DNA of 64,000 bases from the NCBI RefSeq assembly GCF_902459735.1, contig NZ_CABPRV010000001.1, positions 558,001 to 622,000 of the forward strand, given 5' to 3'. Positions 5,896-21,108 of this stretch are shown here, piece after piece. How positions within the stretch are numbered: the first letter of the stretch is position 1; every line of letters starts with the position of its first letter. Under the pieces are notes generated by a model, which was given only the letters and a program-made list of their open reading frames with translations, was not told where the DNA came from and ran no database searches. This stretch comes from Pandoraea capi (lineage in GTDB: Bacteria > Pseudomonadota > Gammaproteobacteria > Burkholderiales > Burkholderiaceae). Both the position numbers and the translations under genes were made by a program.

Positions 5896-6357
5896 ATGAG
5901 CACGACCGATCCCGATCTCTGGTTCTCCTTCGTGCGCGCACATCGCACGATGATTCGCGAGATCGAGCGCCGTCTGGCGCAGGCCGGGCTGCCCGCCTAC
6001 GCTTGGTACGACGCGCTGTGGGGGCTGGAAAGCGGCCCGCAGGGCACGCGTCGCATGCACGAACTGGCCGATGTGCTGGCCATCGAGCGTTACAACCTGA
6101 CGCGTCTGATCGATCGCCTCGAACAGGAGGAACTCGTCACGCGCATGCGCGATCCGGACGACGGCCGTGCGGCCTACGCGACCATCACGGACAAGGGGCG
6201 CGCGCTTCGCAAGAAGATGTGGAAGGTCTACCAGTCCACCGTCGCCGAGCTTTTCCTCAGTCAGTTTCGCGAGAAAGACATCGCTCCCGTGGCCGAGGCG
6301 CTCGACCGCGCCAGCACGGCGGCACGGGCGTTTCTGGTGGAGACGAAGCCACGCTGA
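5896..6357 (+). CDS. MarR-family transcriptional regulator
   Basis: The 153-residue protein has the MarR winged helix: RRMHELADVLAIERYNLTRLIDRLEQ as the recognition region and DPDDGRAAYATITDKGR as the beta wing. It lies divergent to the aceE-like gene and convergent with the E1-like gene. ATG 5896, preceded by AAGGA, is preferred to the upstream ATGs at 5830 and 5875 because those would put operator sequence inside the coding region. MarR proteins usually repress their own gene and a neighbour until a small phenolic or oxidant ligand binds; the shared palindromes suggest that its targets are both E1 genes and the GST gene. Confidence 0.92.
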   Translation: MSTTDPDLWFSFVRAHRTMIREIERRLAQAGLPAYAWYDALWGLESGPQGTRRMHELADVLAIERYNLTRLIDRLEQEELVTRMRDPDDGRAAYATITDKGRALRKKMWKVYQSTVAELFLSQFREKDIAPVAEALDRASTAARAFLVETKPR

Positions 6358-6396: not shown

Positions 6397-7614
6397 TCAG
6401 ATCACGCCGTAACGACGCGTGGCATCTGCGATGCGCGAGCGCGGCAGCATGCCGTCGTTCACCAGCAGGCGCAGCGCGTTCAGGACAATCCAGCGCACGC
6501 CCGGCGCATCGCCCGTCTTCAGGCTCTCGCCGTTTTCATCCTTCCCGCCTTGCACATCCGTGTCGTCGCTGCCCAATGCGGCGAAACGCGCCGGAATGAA
6601 CGCACCGATCTGATTCGCAATGTGGCGCGCATAGCCCGTCACGGCGAGCACCGGTGCGCGTCCGTCTCCGAGACACCGAACCAGATGCGGTACGTCGGCG
6701 GGTGCGTCTGCACGCAGCATCGACATCCGCTCGGCTTCGCCGGCCTCGCGCGCGAGACGCGTATAGCTCGGACAGCTCCACACCTCGCAGGCCACGCCCC
6801 AATCCAGTTGCAGCCATCGCGCCGCTTCGAGCACGTTCGCGAGCGCCCGGCCCGCACCGCACAGCCGGATGACGTAGGGCGGATTCGTGTCAGGGAGCGT
6901 GCGCAGACGGTACATGCCCCGGTAGGCGTCGTGAGCATCGCCCGGTCCCAGCGCCGGTGAAGGGATGGACGGCATGTCGTGCGCGCTCAGATAGCAAAAA
7001 CCGAATTCGCCTCGAACGTACAACGCGTCAAGCGCCGCACATAGCAGCGCTTGCAGTTCCTGTGCCGATGCCGGGTCGTATGGCAGCCATTCGGACTGGG
7101 CCGCGAGCCATAGCGGCAGTTCGGGGCGCACACGTTGCAACCGGTCCGGCGACCAGACGGAGGCGTCGTTGAGGAAGATGCCGCGCCTTAACGGATCGGT
7201 CTGCTGCGGTGCGCGCAGGCCCGACGCTTCGACACCCGCCATCAGCACGCCACGCAATGTCGGTGAATGCAGCAAATACAGCAGCGGACGCTCGCTCGCC
7301 GTCGCCGAGCGAAACCAGGTCGCAATGGCGCTGGGCAAGCTGGACGACGACGCGGCCTTGCTGCGCGACTTTCGGCCCGGGGTCTCCTGCGCCGGTGTCG
7401 CCGAATCCACGATCCACACCTGCTCGGACGTGTCGCCCTGAGCCAGCACATCGGCGATATGGGCCAGCGCCCCCGACGGCGACGTCGCCGTCCCGCCGCC
7501 GTCCTCGCGCTCCCCGCCATCACGGAAAGCCATCAGCTTGCCGATACAAGCCAGCGCCGCCTGTCGCGTTGCGCTCTCGACCGCCGAACGGCCCCGTCCC
7601 GACATCCCCATCAT
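6397..7614 (-). CDS. Truncated E1-like protein without the TPP-binding domain
   Basis: This 405-residue protein aligns with the C-terminal two fifths of the AceE protein encoded next door. The last 200 residues match well by eye: GMYRLR for GLYLLR, ILREV-like VLEAARWLQLDWGVACEVWSC, VRCLGDGRAPVLAVTGYARHIANQI for the QCLADRKGPVVVATDYMKIVGDQI segment, and a final RRYGV. The central domain is degenerate and lacks the GEGLQH residues; the N-terminal domain that carries GDGxxx-N (TPP/Mg) is absent altogether. It therefore cannot be a stand-alone decarboxylase. ATG 7614 follows GGGAGAGG. The frame is open and the length conserved enough to look maintained rather than decayed. A regulatory or structural partner of the AceE copy is a reasonable inference. 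Confidence 0.8.
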   Translation of the reverse strand: MMGMSGRGRSAVESATRQAALACIGKLMAFRDGGEREDGGGTATSPSGALAHIADVLAQGDTSEQVWIVDSATPAQETPGRKSRSKAASSSSLPSAIATWFRSATASERPLLYLLHSPTLRGVLMAGVEASGLRAPQQTDPLRRGIFLNDASVWSPDRLQRVRPELPLWLAAQSEWLPYDPASAQELQALLCAALDALYVRGEFGFCYLSAHDMPSIPSPALGPGDAHDAYRGMYRLRTLPDTNPPYVIRLCGAGRALANVLEAARWLQLDWGVACEVWSCPSYTRLAREAGEAERMSMLRADAPADVPHLVRCLGDGRAPVLAVTGYARHIANQIGAFIPARFAALGSDDTDVQGGKDENGESLKTGDAPGVRWIVLNALRLLVNDGMLPRSRIADATRRYGVI

Positions 7615-7671
7615 GGCCTCTCCCTCATGCGCCGTCACGATTCGGTACGGCTTGTGATTCGTCTCGGAAAC

Positions 7672-7693
7672 ACATACGATTGACATACGATTG
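7672..7693. repeat. Tandem ACATACGATTG duplication
   Basis: Two exact 11-bp copies lie head to tail in the region shared by the E1-like and glutathione-transferase genes. The second copy's ATTG is also the first half of the MarR-type palindrome at 7690. Confidence 0.6.
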
Positions 7694-7703
7694 CAATTGC
7701 AAT
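7690..7703. promoter_or_regulatory. MarR operator candidate, third copy
   Basis: ATTGCAATTGCAAT is a perfect palindrome of the same form as those at 5812 and 5855. It lies between the divergent E1-like and GST genes. Confidence 0.7.
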
Positions 7704-7704
7704 C

Positions 7705-7718
7705 ATTGTATTTGCAAT
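7705..7718. promoter_or_regulatory. MarR operator candidate, fourth copy
   Basis: ATTGTATTTGCAAT has one mismatch to ATTGCA-N2-TGCAAT. Its centre is 15 bp from the preceding copy, suggesting paired binding. Confidence 0.6.
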
Positions 7719-7749: not shown

Positions 7750-8400
7750 ATGACACCGACGCATTTGCCCCTCACCGTCTACACGGCCGACACACCGAAC
7801 GGCCTCAAAGTCAGCCTGTATCTGCACGAATGCGGGTTGCCGCATCGACAGATCGATGTCGATCTCTCTGCTGGAGAACAGAAGCAACCGGCCTTCCTCG
7901 CGTTGAATCCAAACGGCAAGATTCCGGTCATCGTGGATCATGAGCGGGCGCTAACGGTCTTCGAGTCGGGCGCAATCCTGTCGTATCTCGCGACAAAGAC
8001 CGGCGTGCTGCAACCGATGACGAAAGCGAAGGCGATTGCCGTGAATCAGTGGCTTCATTTCCAGATCGGCGGCATTGGCCCGATGCTCGGGCAGTTGTGG
8101 TGGTTCCTCCACGGCTCGAAGACGACCAACACCGAGGCCATCGAACGCTATCGCAAGGAGTCGCTACGGCTGATCGGCGTGGTGGACGACCGGTTGGCGA
8201 CGTCGGCCTATCTCGCGACCGACGAGTACTCGATTGCCGACATCGCCGCGTTCGCGTGGCTACGGACGTATCACGAACTGAACGTGGACATCTCATCGTT
8301 CGCCAACGTGCAACGCTGGCTGGCGCAGATCGAGGCGCGTCCGGCGGTGAAGGCCGCGATTGTGGCCAATCGGGGGACACGGGAAAAGCAGGAGGCGTGA
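7750..8400 (+). CDS. Nu-class glutathione S-transferase (YfcG/YghU type)
   Basis: The 216-residue protein has a thioredoxin-like N-terminal domain (about 1-85) with the TPNGLKVSLYLHE segment typical of Nu-class enzymes, NPNGKIPVIVDH and the ESGAILSYLA glutathione-binding motif. The helical domain contains QIGGIGPMLGQLWWF, which is characteristic of YfcG/YghU. These enzymes act as disulfide-bond reductases and peroxide scavengers using glutathione. GAGGAAA precedes the ATG. It is divergent from the E1-like gene and shares the twin ATTGCA-N2-TGCAAT sites, so it probably belongs to the MarR regulon. The downstream SMR gene starts 4 bp after its stop, suggesting one transcript. Confidence 0.93.
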   Translation: MTPTHLPLTVYTADTPNGLKVSLYLHECGLPHRQIDVDLSAGEQKQPAFLALNPNGKIPVIVDHERALTVFESGAILSYLATKTGVLQPMTKAKAIAVNQWLHFQIGGIGPMLGQLWWFLHGSKTTNTEAIERYRKESLRLIGVVDDRLATSAYLATDEYSIADIAAFAWLRTYHELNVDISSFANVQRWLAQIEARPAVKAAIVANRGTREKQEA

Positions 8401-8741: not shown

Positions 8742-8785
8742 GTCGATGTGATGTCGATGTGATGTCGATGTGATCCCGATGCGAT
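8742..8785. repeat. 11-bp tandem repeat GTCGATGTGAT
   Basis: Three exact head-to-tail copies followed by one degenerate copy begin 11 bp after the SMR stop codon. The region has no open frame of its own; replication slippage is the simplest origin. Confidence 0.8.
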
Positions 8786-8924
8786 GCCGACATCGCGCAC
8801 CGGGAGGCGCCACCGGGACAGCGCGATTTACGCCCGTGACGACCGAATCTATACTGCCCGCAGCGAATCGCCGAAGCTCGCCGGACATCCCCGGCATCGG
8901 CATGAACAAAGGCAGGGGCACGAC

Positions 8925-18285: not shown

Positions 18286-19485
18286 ATGACGCAAAAATCG
18301 ACAATGCCGCCTGTCGTCTACCTGTTAGGACTCACCGTCTTCGCGATGACGACCGCAGAATTCATGGTCGCCGGCATGATGCCCGCGCTCGCCCACGCAA
18401 TGAACGTCGGTATCGGCGACATCGGCAATCTGATCTCGCTCTACGCCCTCGGCATGACCATCGGCGGCCCGGTCCTCACGGCCCTACTGCTCGCGCTGCG
18501 TACCCCGCACAAGCGGGCGCTCATCTGGTTGCTGAGCATCAATGTGGCCGGCGGCGTGCTGGCTGCCGTCTCGACCCGCTATGAAGTGATGGCCCTCGCC
18601 CGGATCATCATGGGGGTAGCCAGCTCGGCGACGTTCGGGGTTGCGCTGACGCTTTGCGCCGATCTCGTGGCGCCGTCGGTTCGCGGGCGCGCGGCGTCCT
18701 TCGTGCTGGGCGGGCTGATGTTCTCGCCGGTGGTCGGTGTGCCGCTCACGGCCTTCATCGAGCAGCACTACGGCTGGCGCGCCAGCTTCTGGCTCGTCGC
18801 CGTGCTCGCTGCGCTTTGCACGGTGGCGGTTGCGCTCTGGGCACCCAGGAGTGAAAAGCAGGAAGAGGAAGTCGTCAGCCTGGCGGCGGAATTTCGCTCG
18901 CTGCTGAATCGTCCGCTGTGGGCCGCGTTTGCGACCAGTGGCCTGATCATCGGCGCGACGTTCGCCGCGTTCAGCTACTTCTCGCCGATCTTTCTGAATG
19001 TCGCCGGCGTGTCGGCCACGTCCATTCCGAATCTGCTCGCGATGTACGGCATCGCCAACATCATCGGCAACGCCGTCGTCGGGCGCTTCGCCGACCGTCA
19101 TACGCTCACCGTGCTGATTGCGGGTTTGTCAGTGCTCGCACTCGCGCTGATCAGCTTCGCGCTTTGGGCCGAGTTGACGCCGGTCGGTATCGCCGCGTTC
19201 GCTGCCATCGGGCTGACGGGCGTGTCGCTCAATCCGGCGATGGTCGCGCGTGTGATGCGGGCCGCAGCCCCCGGGCCGCTCGTCAATACGATGCATACGT
19301 CAGTGATTACGGCCGGTCTCGCCTTCGGGACGTGGGCGGGTGGTGCTGCCATCGACGCCGGGTACAGCATGCGTGCACCACTCTGGATCGGTGCCGCGAT
19401 GGCGGCCCTGGGGCTCGCCAGTTTGTTACCTTACCTCCGCTCGGGTCTCGCTCAGGCCCCCGAAACGGTGTGCTCCGCTTCCTGA
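18286..19485 (+). CDS. MFS efflux transporter, AraJ/PbuE-like (DHA1)
   Basis: The protein of about 399 residues has twelve predicted membrane helices. The N-terminus reads TTAEFMVAGMMPALAHAMNVGIGDIG, typical of the DHA1 sugar-efflux/multidrug branch, and the loop after helix 2 contains TPHKRALIW. RGRAASFVLGGLMFSPVVGVPLT in helix 5 is the antiporter motif C region. Starts at 18271, 18286 and 18304 are possible; none has a good ribosome binding site, and 18286 keeps the palindrome at 18267 outside the gene. The upstream TetR gene probably controls it. The substrate is unknown. Confidence 0.9.
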   Translation: MTQKSTMPPVVYLLGLTVFAMTTAEFMVAGMMPALAHAMNVGIGDIGNLISLYALGMTIGGPVLTALLLALRTPHKRALIWLLSINVAGGVLAAVSTRYEVMALARIIMGVASSATFGVALTLCADLVAPSVRGRAASFVLGGLMFSPVVGVPLTAFIEQHYGWRASFWLVAVLAALCTVAVALWAPRSEKQEEEVVSLAAEFRSLLNRPLWAAFATSGLIIGATFAAFSYFSPIFLNVAGVSATSIPNLLAMYGIANIIGNAVVGRFADRHTLTVLIAGLSVLALALISFALWAELTPVGIAAFAAIGLTGVSLNPAMVARVMRAAAPGPLVNTMHTSVITAGLAFGTWAGGAAIDAGYSMRAPLWIGAAMAALGLASLLPYLRSGLAQAPETVCSAS

Positions 19486-19606
19486 TGCTGTCTTAGATGA
19501 GGGGGCAGCCAGGTCCGGGAAGCACTCGCTTACCGCATCGGAATGGCTGCCTCACCCGATAGATCCCCAACGCATCTCGCACCTTCAGACGTTCAGCGCG
19601 CACCGA

Positions 19607-19714
19607 TCAGAACAGTGCCAGCACGTCGTTGAAAAACTTCGCTACCGGTGCAGCACGGCTTGCCCACGTGCCTACGGTCACCAGTGCGTCGCAGATCGGT
19701 CCAATTGCAGCCAT
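19607..19714 (-). CDS. 35-residue hydrophobic peptide, tandem copy 1
   Basis: The frame is ATG 19714 to TGA 19607, preceded by GGAGGTGTGAC, an ideal ribosome binding site with 6-base spacing. The peptide begins MAAIGPICDALVTVGTW and ends FFNDVLALF; it has one cysteine (residue 8), one arginine (20), one lysine (26) and otherwise mostly aliphatic or aromatic residues, so it should form an amphipathic or membrane-seeking helix. There is no signal-peptide or leader-peptide cleavage pattern. The copy at 19764 encodes the same peptide with five base changes, all silent, which strongly supports translation. Family unknown; a type I toxin-like, bacteriocin-like or signalling peptide are all possible. 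Confidence 0.82.
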   Translation of the reverse strand: MAAIGPICDALVTVGTWASRAAPVAKFFNDVLALF

Positions 19715-19763
19715 GTCACACCTCCAGTCGATTCAGTTCGGTTTGCGTTTCGTCGCGCGTTAA

Positions 19764-19871
19764 TCAGAACAGCGCCAGCACATCGTTGAAGAACTTCGCT
19801 ACCGGAGCAGCACGGCTTGCCCACGTGCCTACGGTTACCAGTGCGTCGCAGATCGGTCCAATTGCAGCCAT
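19764..19871 (-). CDS. 35-residue hydrophobic peptide, tandem copy 2
   Basis: ATG 19871 to TGA 19764; the amino-acid sequence is identical to copy 1. The five base differences (Val, Ala, Phe, Asp and Ala codons) are all at third positions. The ribosome binding site is GGGGGTGTGAC, one base weaker than in copies 1 and 3, so this copy may be translated less. The spacer to copy 1 is 49 bp with no terminator, so the three are probably one transcript read from copy 3 to copy 1. Confidence 0.82.
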   Translation of the reverse strand: MAAIGPICDALVTVGTWASRAAPVAKFFNDVLALF

Positions 19872-19921
19872 GTCACACCCCCAGTCGATTCGGTTCGGTT
19901 TGTAATTCGTATCGGGTTATT

Positions 19922-20029
19922 TCAGAACAGCGCCATCACGTCGTTGATGAACTTTGCTACCGGGGCTGCCCGGCTAGCCCACGTTCCGACAACCACCAGT
20001 CCGTCGCAGATCGGTCCAATCAGAGCCAT
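19922..20029 (-). CDS. 35-residue hydrophobic peptide, tandem copy 3 (promoter-proximal)
   Basis: ATG 20029 to TGA 19922, with GGAGGTGTGAA upstream. It differs from copies 1 and 2 at five residues (A3L, A10G, T13V, F28I, L32M), all conservative, while IGPICD, VGTWASRAAPVAKF, NDV and the final ALF are unchanged. This pattern of substitution, hydrophobic for hydrophobic with fixed polar positions, indicates selection on an amphipathic structure. A TTGACA hexamer at 20104-20099 (minus strand) and a GGTCCGGACC palindrome lie upstream. Confidence 0.83.
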   Translation of the reverse strand: MALIGPICDGLVVVGTWASRAAPVAKFINDVMALF

Positions 20030-20098
20030 TTCACACCTCCAGTTTCGCTTCGTCGTTGTTGGGTCTTTGTTTCGTCGTTTCGCGTTTGCCGCGAGTTG

Positions 20099-20104
20099 TG
20101 TCAA
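20099..20104 (-). promoter_or_regulatory. Possible -35 element of the peptide array
   Basis: A perfect TTGACA on the minus strand lies 70 bp upstream of peptide copy 3. The hexamer 17 bases further (GAAACG) is a poor -10, so the promoter call is tentative. Confidence 0.35.
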
Positions 20105-20113
20105 AGATAAACC

Positions 20114-20129
20114 TCGGGTCCGGACCTGA
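20114..20129. promoter_or_regulatory. Palindrome upstream of the peptide array
   Basis: TCGGGTCCGGACCTGA contains a perfect 10-bp core GGTCCGGACC with two further matching bases at each outer end. It lies in the divergent region between the peptide array and the DUF3348 operon, where a shared regulator could act. Confidence 0.4.
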
Positions 20130-20132
20130 AAA

Positions 20133-20148
20133 CTGAGATAAATCACAG
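20133..20148. promoter_or_regulatory. CTG-N10-CAG element, weak LexA-box candidate
   Basis: CTGAGATAAATCACAG has the spacing of a LexA box (compare the recA site at 62625) but an imperfect A/T core. Such a minimal pattern is expected by chance many times in 64 kb, so only its position, 104 bp upstream of the peptide array, makes it worth noting. Confidence 0.2.
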
Positions 20149-20301
20149 TCGATGCGCCGGACGGCGGAAGTCCGCCACGGCGTCTTCCAAAAGATGTCCA
20201 AATGGCCCGCTTCACGCCCGTCAAGCCCCGGCATACCGGGCAGTCGGCGGTCGGAAGGCGCGCGCAGTGTAAACTGCTGGGTTTTCGACCCCCCCAGTGG
20301 A

Positions 20302-21108
20302 ATGGTGCAAGTGTCCCGGCGTCCCGTTATCAGCGCCCCAACACTCATACGCTCGCTGGCCCGCCTGAGCTCGTTCGCGCCCCCGGAGGCCGCGCCGTCG
20401 CTCTCGGACCGCATGAGCCAGTGGCTGGGCTGGACCGACGCCATCGCGCTCTCGTCGGCCCTGAAAGCCAACCCGCCGGCGGCAACGCCCGGCGCGCGTT
20501 CGGCTGCGCAGGACCCGGCGAGCGCGCTCGCCACACTCGCCCGTGTGCGCGCCGAGCTGGCCGCCGCCATCGCCCGCGATTGCGGGCTGGCCGCCGCCCC
20601 CGGCGGGCAGATCCGCGCCCTGAGCGCCGCCGAGCGTCAGCGCGCCGCGTCCTTCGCCGAATTTCCGGCGTATCGACAGCGCTACGCGACCTCGCAGCAG
20701 ACGATGGATACGGCGATCAGCGCCCTGCGCACCCGCCTGCGGGCCCAGTTGGCCACGCAGTCGCCGGACGCCGCCCGACTCGCCAGCGTCGACGCCGTCA
20801 TGGAGCGTGTGATGGGCGCACGTGAGCGCACACTGCTTGCCAGCGTGCCGAATTTGCTCGAAGGGCATTTCGTGCGGCTACGTGACACGGAACAGGCGGC
20901 CATGGCCGCCCCGCGCGTGCCCGGCGCCCCGGCGCTACCGCCGGCCGGCACATGGCTCGACACCTTCCACCGGGATATGCAGAGCGTTTTGCTCGCGGAA
21001 CTGGATATACGCCTGGAACCGATCGAAGGGCTGATCGCCGCCCTCGCCTCGGTGACTCCCGGCGAAAACGTTAGTGAACCCGGACAACATGACCCGTTAC
21101 CTCGTTGA
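20302..21108 (+). CDS. DUF3348 protein, first gene of a MotAB-like operon
   Basis: The 268-residue protein is predicted to be cytoplasmic and mostly helical, without membrane segments. Recognisable DUF3348 features are the N-terminal APTLIRSLARL, the central DRMSQWLGWTDAIALS, and the helix-rich FAEFPAYRQRYATSQQTMDTAI followed by ERTLLASVPNLLEGHF. Its function is unknown; the family is known to me only beside DUF802 genes. ATG 20302 gives the family N-terminus, although its ribosome binding site is weak. It overlaps the DUF802 start by 20 bp, indicating translational coupling. Confidence 0.85.
   Translation: MVQVSRRPVISAPTLIRSLARLSSFAPPEAAPSLSDRMSQWLGWTDAIALSSALKANPPAATPGARSAAQDPASALATLARVRAELAAAIARDCGLAAAPGGQIRALSAAERQRAASFAEFPAYRQRYATSQQTMDTAISALRTRLRAQLATQSPDAARLASVDAVMERVMGARERTLLASVPNLLEGHFVRLRDTEQAAMAAPRVPGAPALPPAGTWLDTFHRDMQSVLLAELDIRLEPIEGLIAALASVTPGENVSEPGQHDPLPR

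Follow-up and report, generated by a model that had tools for sequence, protein, structure and literature searches.

The window analysed here is a stretch of 64,000 nucleotides from Pandoraea capi that carries, on its minus strand at 19607-20029, three tandem genes for peptides of 35 residues preceded by a lux-box-like promoter element. The peptide genes form a selected protein family and are not chance open reading frames (ORFs), and within the collections searched the family is restricted to Pandoraea. A promoter block is conserved together with the genes, and the same box at the same spacing stands before luxI and before other small-peptide genes. The reading that we favour, at a little under an even chance, is that the locus is an operon of leaderless amphipathic peptides under the control of a LuxR-type regulator, resembling the phenol-soluble modulins (PSMs) in its working but unrelated to them. 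The promoter build suggests a cell-signalling programme for the bulk production of membrane-active peptides.

In transcription order the genes lie at 19922..20029 (peptide MALIGPICDGLVVVGTWASRAAPVAKFINDVMALF), 19764..19871 and 19607..19714 (both encoding MAAIGPICDALVTVGTWASRAAPVAKFFNDVLALF, 35 aa; ORF and codon evolution), each with 35 codons and a stop. They are repeated with a period of 157 bp (Tandem Repeats Finder score 652; spacings 157 and 158). Their ribosome-binding sites, GGAGGTGTGAA for the first gene (20030..20040), GGGGGTGTGAC for the second (19872..19882) and GGAGGTGTGAC for the third (19715..19725), place GGAGG or GGGGG six bases 5′ of each ATG. The two low-coordinate copies show exactly 5 base differences, each a silent change at a third position, and the remaining copy (19922-20029) carries 5 amino-acid replacements (A3L, A10G, T13V, F28I and L32M). 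A sequence-only reading of the window had described three such frames with their own ribosome-binding sites, the silent differences and the five substitutions, and is confirmed on each by the ORFs, the repeat period and base comparison. A search of the same genome at E up to 10 returned no further copies. The inverted repeat GGCAGCC...GGCTGCC after the last gene (19504..19551, minus strand) is a weak terminator candidate without a U-run; it is not among the 2 terminator-like sites of a scan, one of which lies within the last gene.

The family is present in 23 of 32 Pandoraea genomes with one or more copies each, and copy number varies among relatives. From these carriers 60 copies were taken. 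Not counted among them are a degenerate extra copy in genome G016, contig-end partial copies in G031 and, in G010 and G011, the second solo copies. All but two are at least 34 codons long (58/60; the two in G001 and G023 have 25), neighbouring units are spaced 151-166 bp across the arrays, and GGAGGTGTGA[AC]ATG or close variants precede the start codons throughout. Codon analysis covered the 55 copies remaining after removal of both 25-codon copies and the three that diverge most. Between genomes the ratio of nonsynonymous to synonymous divergence (pN/pS) in the coding frame is 0.374 (pS 0.520, pN 0.195), whereas the five remaining frames give 0.51-1.87, and no in-frame stop interrupts any of the 55 copies. 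The next lowest ratio, 0.51, belongs to the antisense frame in which third positions lie opposite those of the sense strand; this frame is open in 54/55 copies, and both properties are what a shadow frame would show. The dominance of silent changes extends beyond the window; of the earlier statement that the peptides are translated and selected, selection is directly supported, and translation is strongly implied by codon evolution. Pooled pS is 0.347 within genomes versus 0.520 between them: copies in the same genome tend to be alike, as would follow from repeated duplication or gene conversion. Divergent array members occur in G005, G031 and G014, which has five copies, three of them divergent. 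Apparently decaying members are found in G012 and, as a remnant that follows the last copy, in G017. The codon for glycine 5 is always GGA in the 50 aligned copies with Gly there (50/50), unusually fixed for a gene start.

Searches of 398 family and 399 order genomes (partly overlapping) gave nothing convincing outside Pandoraea, with 19 first-look candidates scored for large genomes, where a distant relative could escape. The best profile match outside the genus (E 6e-4) is short and partial and was judged chance from the tables. In a contig collection 44 stretches matched, of which 15 encode relatives (tblastn E up to 1e-3, a cut-off that would drop more distant ones), all from Pandoraea. 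The origin of the window in Burkholderiaceae, as first suggested, is borne out by its assignment to this genus. Seventeen stretches of viral contigs encode no relative, plasmid and phage collections have no match to the peptide, and Pfam, PHROGs and NCBIfam return 0 hits for the two window peptides (Pfam and NCBIfam at E up to 10). The description of the products as leaderless multi-copy peptides outside known families therefore stands.

Residues D9, V12, G15, W17, A18 and P23 are invariant in 15-member alignments, and D9, G15, W17, P23 and the motif VAKF are kept across most members; when the two most divergent paralogues are included only M1 and W17 remain invariant. AlphaFold2 predicts one helix over residues 4-34 (mean predicted local distance difference test 83.5, predicted template modelling score 0.36). 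The best match in a sequence search of the PDB (E 0.82) was judged chance. The peptides had been called hydrophobic, which holds for the grand average of hydropathy (1.1-1.2 for the window peptides) but not at the transmembrane level. The maximum 19-residue hydropathy is 1.25 and 1.50 for the two window peptides and 0.70-1.52 over nine members, the usual transmembrane cut-off being 1.6. Amphipathic helix is the better description, because no 19-residue stretch reaches that level. Of nine family members, eight have a net charge of 0 or -1 and the ninth -3, none being cationic. The window peptide with the hydropathy maximum of 1.25 has a net charge of 0 and a maximum 18-residue hydrophobic moment of 0.43. 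It is a borderline case that resembles a surface helix more than a membrane-spanning toxin.

These properties bear on whether the array is a type I toxin locus of the Ldr, Ibs or TisB kind, whose intracellular membrane-damaging peptide is held off by an antisense RNA or a structured mRNA. Type I toxins are often tandem, and the array shares with them its size of exactly 35 residues, the tandem arrangement, the lack of a leader and the helix. We consider such a locus unlikely. Besides the hydropathy maxima, the mRNA near the start is less structured than shuffles in 59/60 copies, the locus has no Rfam match, and one conserved promoter block, putatively of activator type, stands before the whole array. 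Neither an antisense gene nor a promoter for each copy was found, and the spacers show no such block. The sequence-only reading had proposed a check of the opposite strand for an antisense RNA. A consensus scan of 19400-20350 on both strands gives no promoter-like site, which is weak evidence because the scan also misses the inferred sense promoter. That promoter may be expected to go uncalled if it depends on an activator.

The promoter block is built around a putative lux-box-like operator, CTGTGATTTATCTCAG (20133..20148, minus strand), a near-invariant 16-bp box that is abutted by a putative -35 hexamer, TTTTCA (20127..20132, minus strand), and followed after 23 bp by a putative -10 hexamer, TATCTT (20104..20109, minus strand). 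Transcription is predicted to start near 20097, which would put the box centre near -42.5. The operator is a CTG-N10-CAG dyad whose length falls within the 16-20 bp of lux boxes, and a plasmid variant, CTGCGATTTATCGCAG, is symmetric in 14/16 positions. When 22 upstream regions are aligned, the block CTGTGATTT[AG]TCTCAGTTT is near-invariant in all but G012, and with the same exception a second block around TATC[TG]T follows at a fixed distance. With up to 3 mismatches allowed, the 19-mer CTGTGATTTRTCTCAGTTT has no site in the window genome other than this operator. The exact core TGTGATTTRTCTCAG occurs in 22 of the 23 array genomes at 24 sites, and a family peptide lies downstream of each, the one in G031 being a partial copy where a contig ends; the distance from box to array ATG is 98-123 bp. 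In G012 the box is lost and the single copy has replacements at otherwise fixed places; in G019 the two flanking genes are separated by about 177 bp that contain neither array nor box. Box and array are therefore kept and lost together, and the box is not near the array-flanking genes in nine other stretches inspected. The sequence-only reading was right on the genes but overlooked this promoter, the other tiny peptides behind the box and the match to LuxR solos. A second solo, divergent family member, MPWMALLDGLVAVGSAAARLAPVAKFLAQTVDIFC, has the same box upstream in G011 (L087 near 7863-7970, plus strand) and G010 (L088 near 7614-7715, minus strand), in both cases away from the first copy.

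The box has a counterpart at luxI. In the window genome a LuxR gene is convergent with a luxI homologue (PF00765, 37 bits), upstream of which the perfect dyad CTGTCAACGTTGACAG is separated by 23 bp from a following TAATCT. Eighteen LuxR loci were scanned, two of which (G013 and G016) belong to the LuxR3 group and 16 are luxR1 loci reached through LuxR and hence independently of the box. In 15/16 of the latter, CTGTCAACGTTGACAG (0-2 changes)-N23-TANNCT stands ahead of luxI, and TTTTC or TTTCC is at the -35 place in 13/15 luxI promoters. The array box and the luxI box thus have the same N23 spacing to the -10. Across 444 kb of Pandoraea DNA, a biased set with many loci fetched for the box, there are 62 oriented palindromic CTG-N10-CAG sites, with 17 occurrences of TANNNT at N23 and two in total at all remaining spacings between 10 and 35. 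At L210:5033-5048, about 735 bp farther upstream than the luxI promoter box, the lux box CTGTCAACGTTGACAG occurs a second time. A PF00765 match in L211 falls in a 292-aa acyltransferase-like frame and, judged by eye, was not counted as a luxI.

Two LuxR solos, regulators reported to be exclusive to Pandoraea (available text of PMC6691176), are the first candidates for the activator. From 86 LuxR-domain hits 82 proteins were extracted, leaving out 4 (G019, G024, G026 and G030) with no match to the LuxR1 of the window genome. Two orthologous groups, each in 27/32 genomes, were matched to LuxR2 and LuxR3 by degree of conservation. Both solos are present in 23/23 box genomes and in 4/9 others, and the luxI-linked LuxR1 in 14/23 box genomes. 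The co-occurrence of solos and box has a hypergeometric probability of 6e-4, which ignores phylogeny and is indicative only. No palindromic box is present in the 1.7-kb stretches of the window genome that contain the solos themselves. Exogenous homoserine lactones are reported as ligands of both solos (PMC10134790, in the part available). PMC6691176 names no targets of the solos in its available text, and the word ‘peptide’ occurs 0 times in its main text.

Several points weigh against LuxR control of surface-active peptides. The hydrophobic moment of 0.43 is borderline against the yardstick for surface activity, and accessibility of the Shine-Dalgarno sequence is above shuffles in just 29/60 copies. 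In the stretch scanned, the luxI-linked locus of G001 lacks a box of the luxI kind. The association with the solos is confounded by phylogeny: the genomes without solos (G003, G015, G024, G026 and G030) may have branched early or be reduced, and solos without an intact box occur in G004, G012, G020 and G029. No linked exporter or immunity gene was seen, the further neighbours not being annotated one by one. Finally, the operator and the luxI box share their outer bases and differ at the inner ones, so another or private regulator with a CTG-N10-CAG operator is possible.

Such a regulator (LexA, CRP/FNR or a private factor) would make the peptides part of an SOS, starvation or plasmid-linked response, for which we see perhaps one chance in a handful or slightly better. 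LexA boxes are likewise CTG-N10-CAG dyads, with the consensus CTGT-N8-ACAG, and CRP binds TGTGA-N6-TCACA. None of 37 sites (24 array, 13 other) fits the LexA consensus: TCAG ends all 24 array boxes and CTGC starts 9/13 of the others. The half-sites TGYGA/TCNCA lie 4 bp apart as against 6 for CRP, and the CRP/FNR reading of the operator was dropped because plasmid copies show this 4-bp distance. The spacing of N23 to the -10 box, equal to that of luxI, also speaks for LuxR over these regulators.

The same box precedes other small genes. With up to 3 mismatches allowed, Box-N23-TATNNT occurs in 24/32 Pandoraea genomes, and a reversed control pattern gives 1 match in all 32. Beyond the 24 array and solo-copy sites there are 18 with the box or its core at ≤1 mismatch. 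Eight of these precede other tiny-peptide genes, with the ATG 101-107 bp after the box start. One group, of 40 residues and glycine-rich, is found in G001, in G002 and, as a disrupted remnant, in G021; a second, likewise glycine-rich, has 43-44 residues and is found in G005; the third, of 45-51 residues, occupies three G019 sites and a single one in G008. Three sites, one in G019 and two in G008, precede a putative small RNA (sRNA) with a strong terminator hairpin, and two have no assigned product (G019 C2:157987 and G015 C48). The remaining five, core matches at 1 mismatch in G018, G029, G026 and twice in G008, have no tiny gene or placed -10 and were judged chance. Five other Pandoraea genomes carry variants of the box ahead of three further peptide groups and of a putative sRNA. 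The four peptide groups have no mutual similarity at E below 4 (BLASTP, one member each), and the other tiny peptides match no Pfam family at its cut-off.

By tblastn the G008 contig is the Pandoraea oxalativorans plasmid pPO70-1 and that of G019 the P. faecigallinarum plasmid pPF72-1, both predicted to be conjugative; the four 45-51-residue genes on them are annotated as hypothetical proteins. The putative sRNA behind the box on these two megaplasmids is placed at L201:12171-12289 (plus strand), with L202 and L203 at matching distance from boxes at 6011 (reverse complement) and 6403, respectively. Its first element is a hairpin whose loop is C-rich (CACCGCCCCC...GGTG); a CCCGCAGC...GCTGCGGG terminator with a T-run comes next, and Rfam has no match to it. 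The C-rich loop could pair with Shine-Dalgarno sequences. Two near-identical modules on the G019 plasmid (L167 and L168), set in different surroundings, begin close to the box and finish close to the stop of the 50-aa gene and, judged by eye, look like a mobile box-plus-peptide cassette. The same P. faecigallinarum plasmid, with its five boxes, has a match to the LuxR autoinducer domain (L414, G019 C2:267555, 55 bits). Outside Pandoraea the element occurs in 15/366 genomes (reversed control, 1 in 398), and 12 of the 15 sites were inspected and have no such peptide gene. Ten of the 15 are one conserved block in genus g34 (L110-L119), mostly CTAGGATTTATCTCAGTTT, before inverted DnaA-box-like sequences. 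This block is probably an origin of replication and its likeness to the peptide box probably accidental.

The other peptides behind the box also bear on two further explanations. In one, the products are small intracellular proteins with a structural or regulatory role, bound to a membrane complex and adjusted in dose through the number of gene copies. The conservation of D9, G15, W17, P23 and VAKF suggests a specific partner over a generic amphipath. The same box, however, serves peptides without evident similarity, and a core function is excluded because the family is absent from 9/32 Pandoraea genomes and not found in the other genera searched. We regard this role as improbable, at about one chance in five. 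The other explanation, to which we give a still smaller probability, is a set of leaderless bacteriocins, secreted killers of relatives like the multi-peptide aureocin A70. Here the likeness lies in tandem, leaderless, apparently co-transcribed small genes, in sequence-varied paralogues within one genome (as in G014) and in the glycine-rich peptides behind the same box. Against it, the peptides are not cationic, no immunity, transport or ATP-binding cassette exporter gene is seen beside them (within the limit on neighbours given above), and the flanking major facilitator superfamily (MFS) gene is not beside the array in 7/23 carriers, being absent there in G002, G006 and G023 and about 15 kb away in G007, G010, G011 and G028. 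The earlier judgement that neither type I toxins nor leaderless bacteriocins clearly match is upheld by the lack of a promoter-like site and of cationic peptides.

In the favoured LuxR-controlled operon, a single class-II activator-type promoter would drive three genes for leaderless, net-neutral, amphipathic helical peptides. The activator would most likely be a LuxR-type regulator bound to the variant lux box near -42.5, with the LuxR2 or LuxR3 solo as first candidate. When an acyl-homoserine lactone (AHL), self-made or foreign, is sensed, the peptides would be made in bulk, since tandem copies and near-ideal ribosome-binding sites raise output. They would then leave the cell and, in the manner of the agr-controlled PSMs of staphylococci, most likely act on membranes or surfaces as surfactants or in spreading or competition. 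A wider proposal, which we think plausible but clearly less than an even bet, is a LuxR-solo regulon made up mostly of leaderless micropeptides. In it the cassette CTGYGATTTATCNCAG-N23-TATNNT, before at least 4 groups of 35-51-residue peptides without evident similarity and a small RNA, on chromosomes and predicted-conjugative megaplasmids, would answer the cell's own or its neighbours' AHLs with a burst of membrane-active peptides, as a Gram-negative counterpart of the agr-PSM circuit.

Staphylococcal PSMs are amphipathic helices without a leader, and the Pandoraea peptides likewise lack a leader and have one predicted helix, with a borderline moment of 0.43. A further likeness to PSMs and to slushABC of S. 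lugdunensis is the production of several small peptides from one locus; control of a quorum-sensing type would be another, which in Pandoraea is suggested by promoter geometry only. The Pandoraea peptides differ in having no detectable sequence relation to PSMs (0 Pfam and 0 NCBIfam matches at E up to 10), a Gram-negative host and a lux-type box in place of an AgrA site. For slushABC, three peptides lowered in an agrA mutant are reported (PMC8826819, in the part available). Within Pandoraea itself, the solos (PMC6691176, available text) and the peptides both appear to be exclusive to the genus, and the luxI promoter has the same geometry as that of the array. No Pandoraea peptide of this kind or LuxR-controlled leaderless peptide operon is described among the titles and abstract openings listed from an open-access library. 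The operon and the other box genes are candidate targets for the two solos held to be exclusive to Pandoraea in the available text of PMC6691176. If this is true, quorum sensing or eavesdropping in a cystic-fibrosis-associated genus switches on leaderless peptides that are absent from family libraries, and further small-peptide genes can be sought with the box as a key.

Divergent from the array is a gene (20296-21108) that is matched in 31/32 Pandoraea genomes and starts a cluster also encoding a 1021-aa protein and an OmpA-like one. In 19/23 carriers the array adjoins this gene, even where the MFS gene is missing. Elsewhere in the window, a tandem repeat of GTCGATGTGAT (8742-8790, 4.5 copies) overlaps the start of a plus-strand ORF at 8784.
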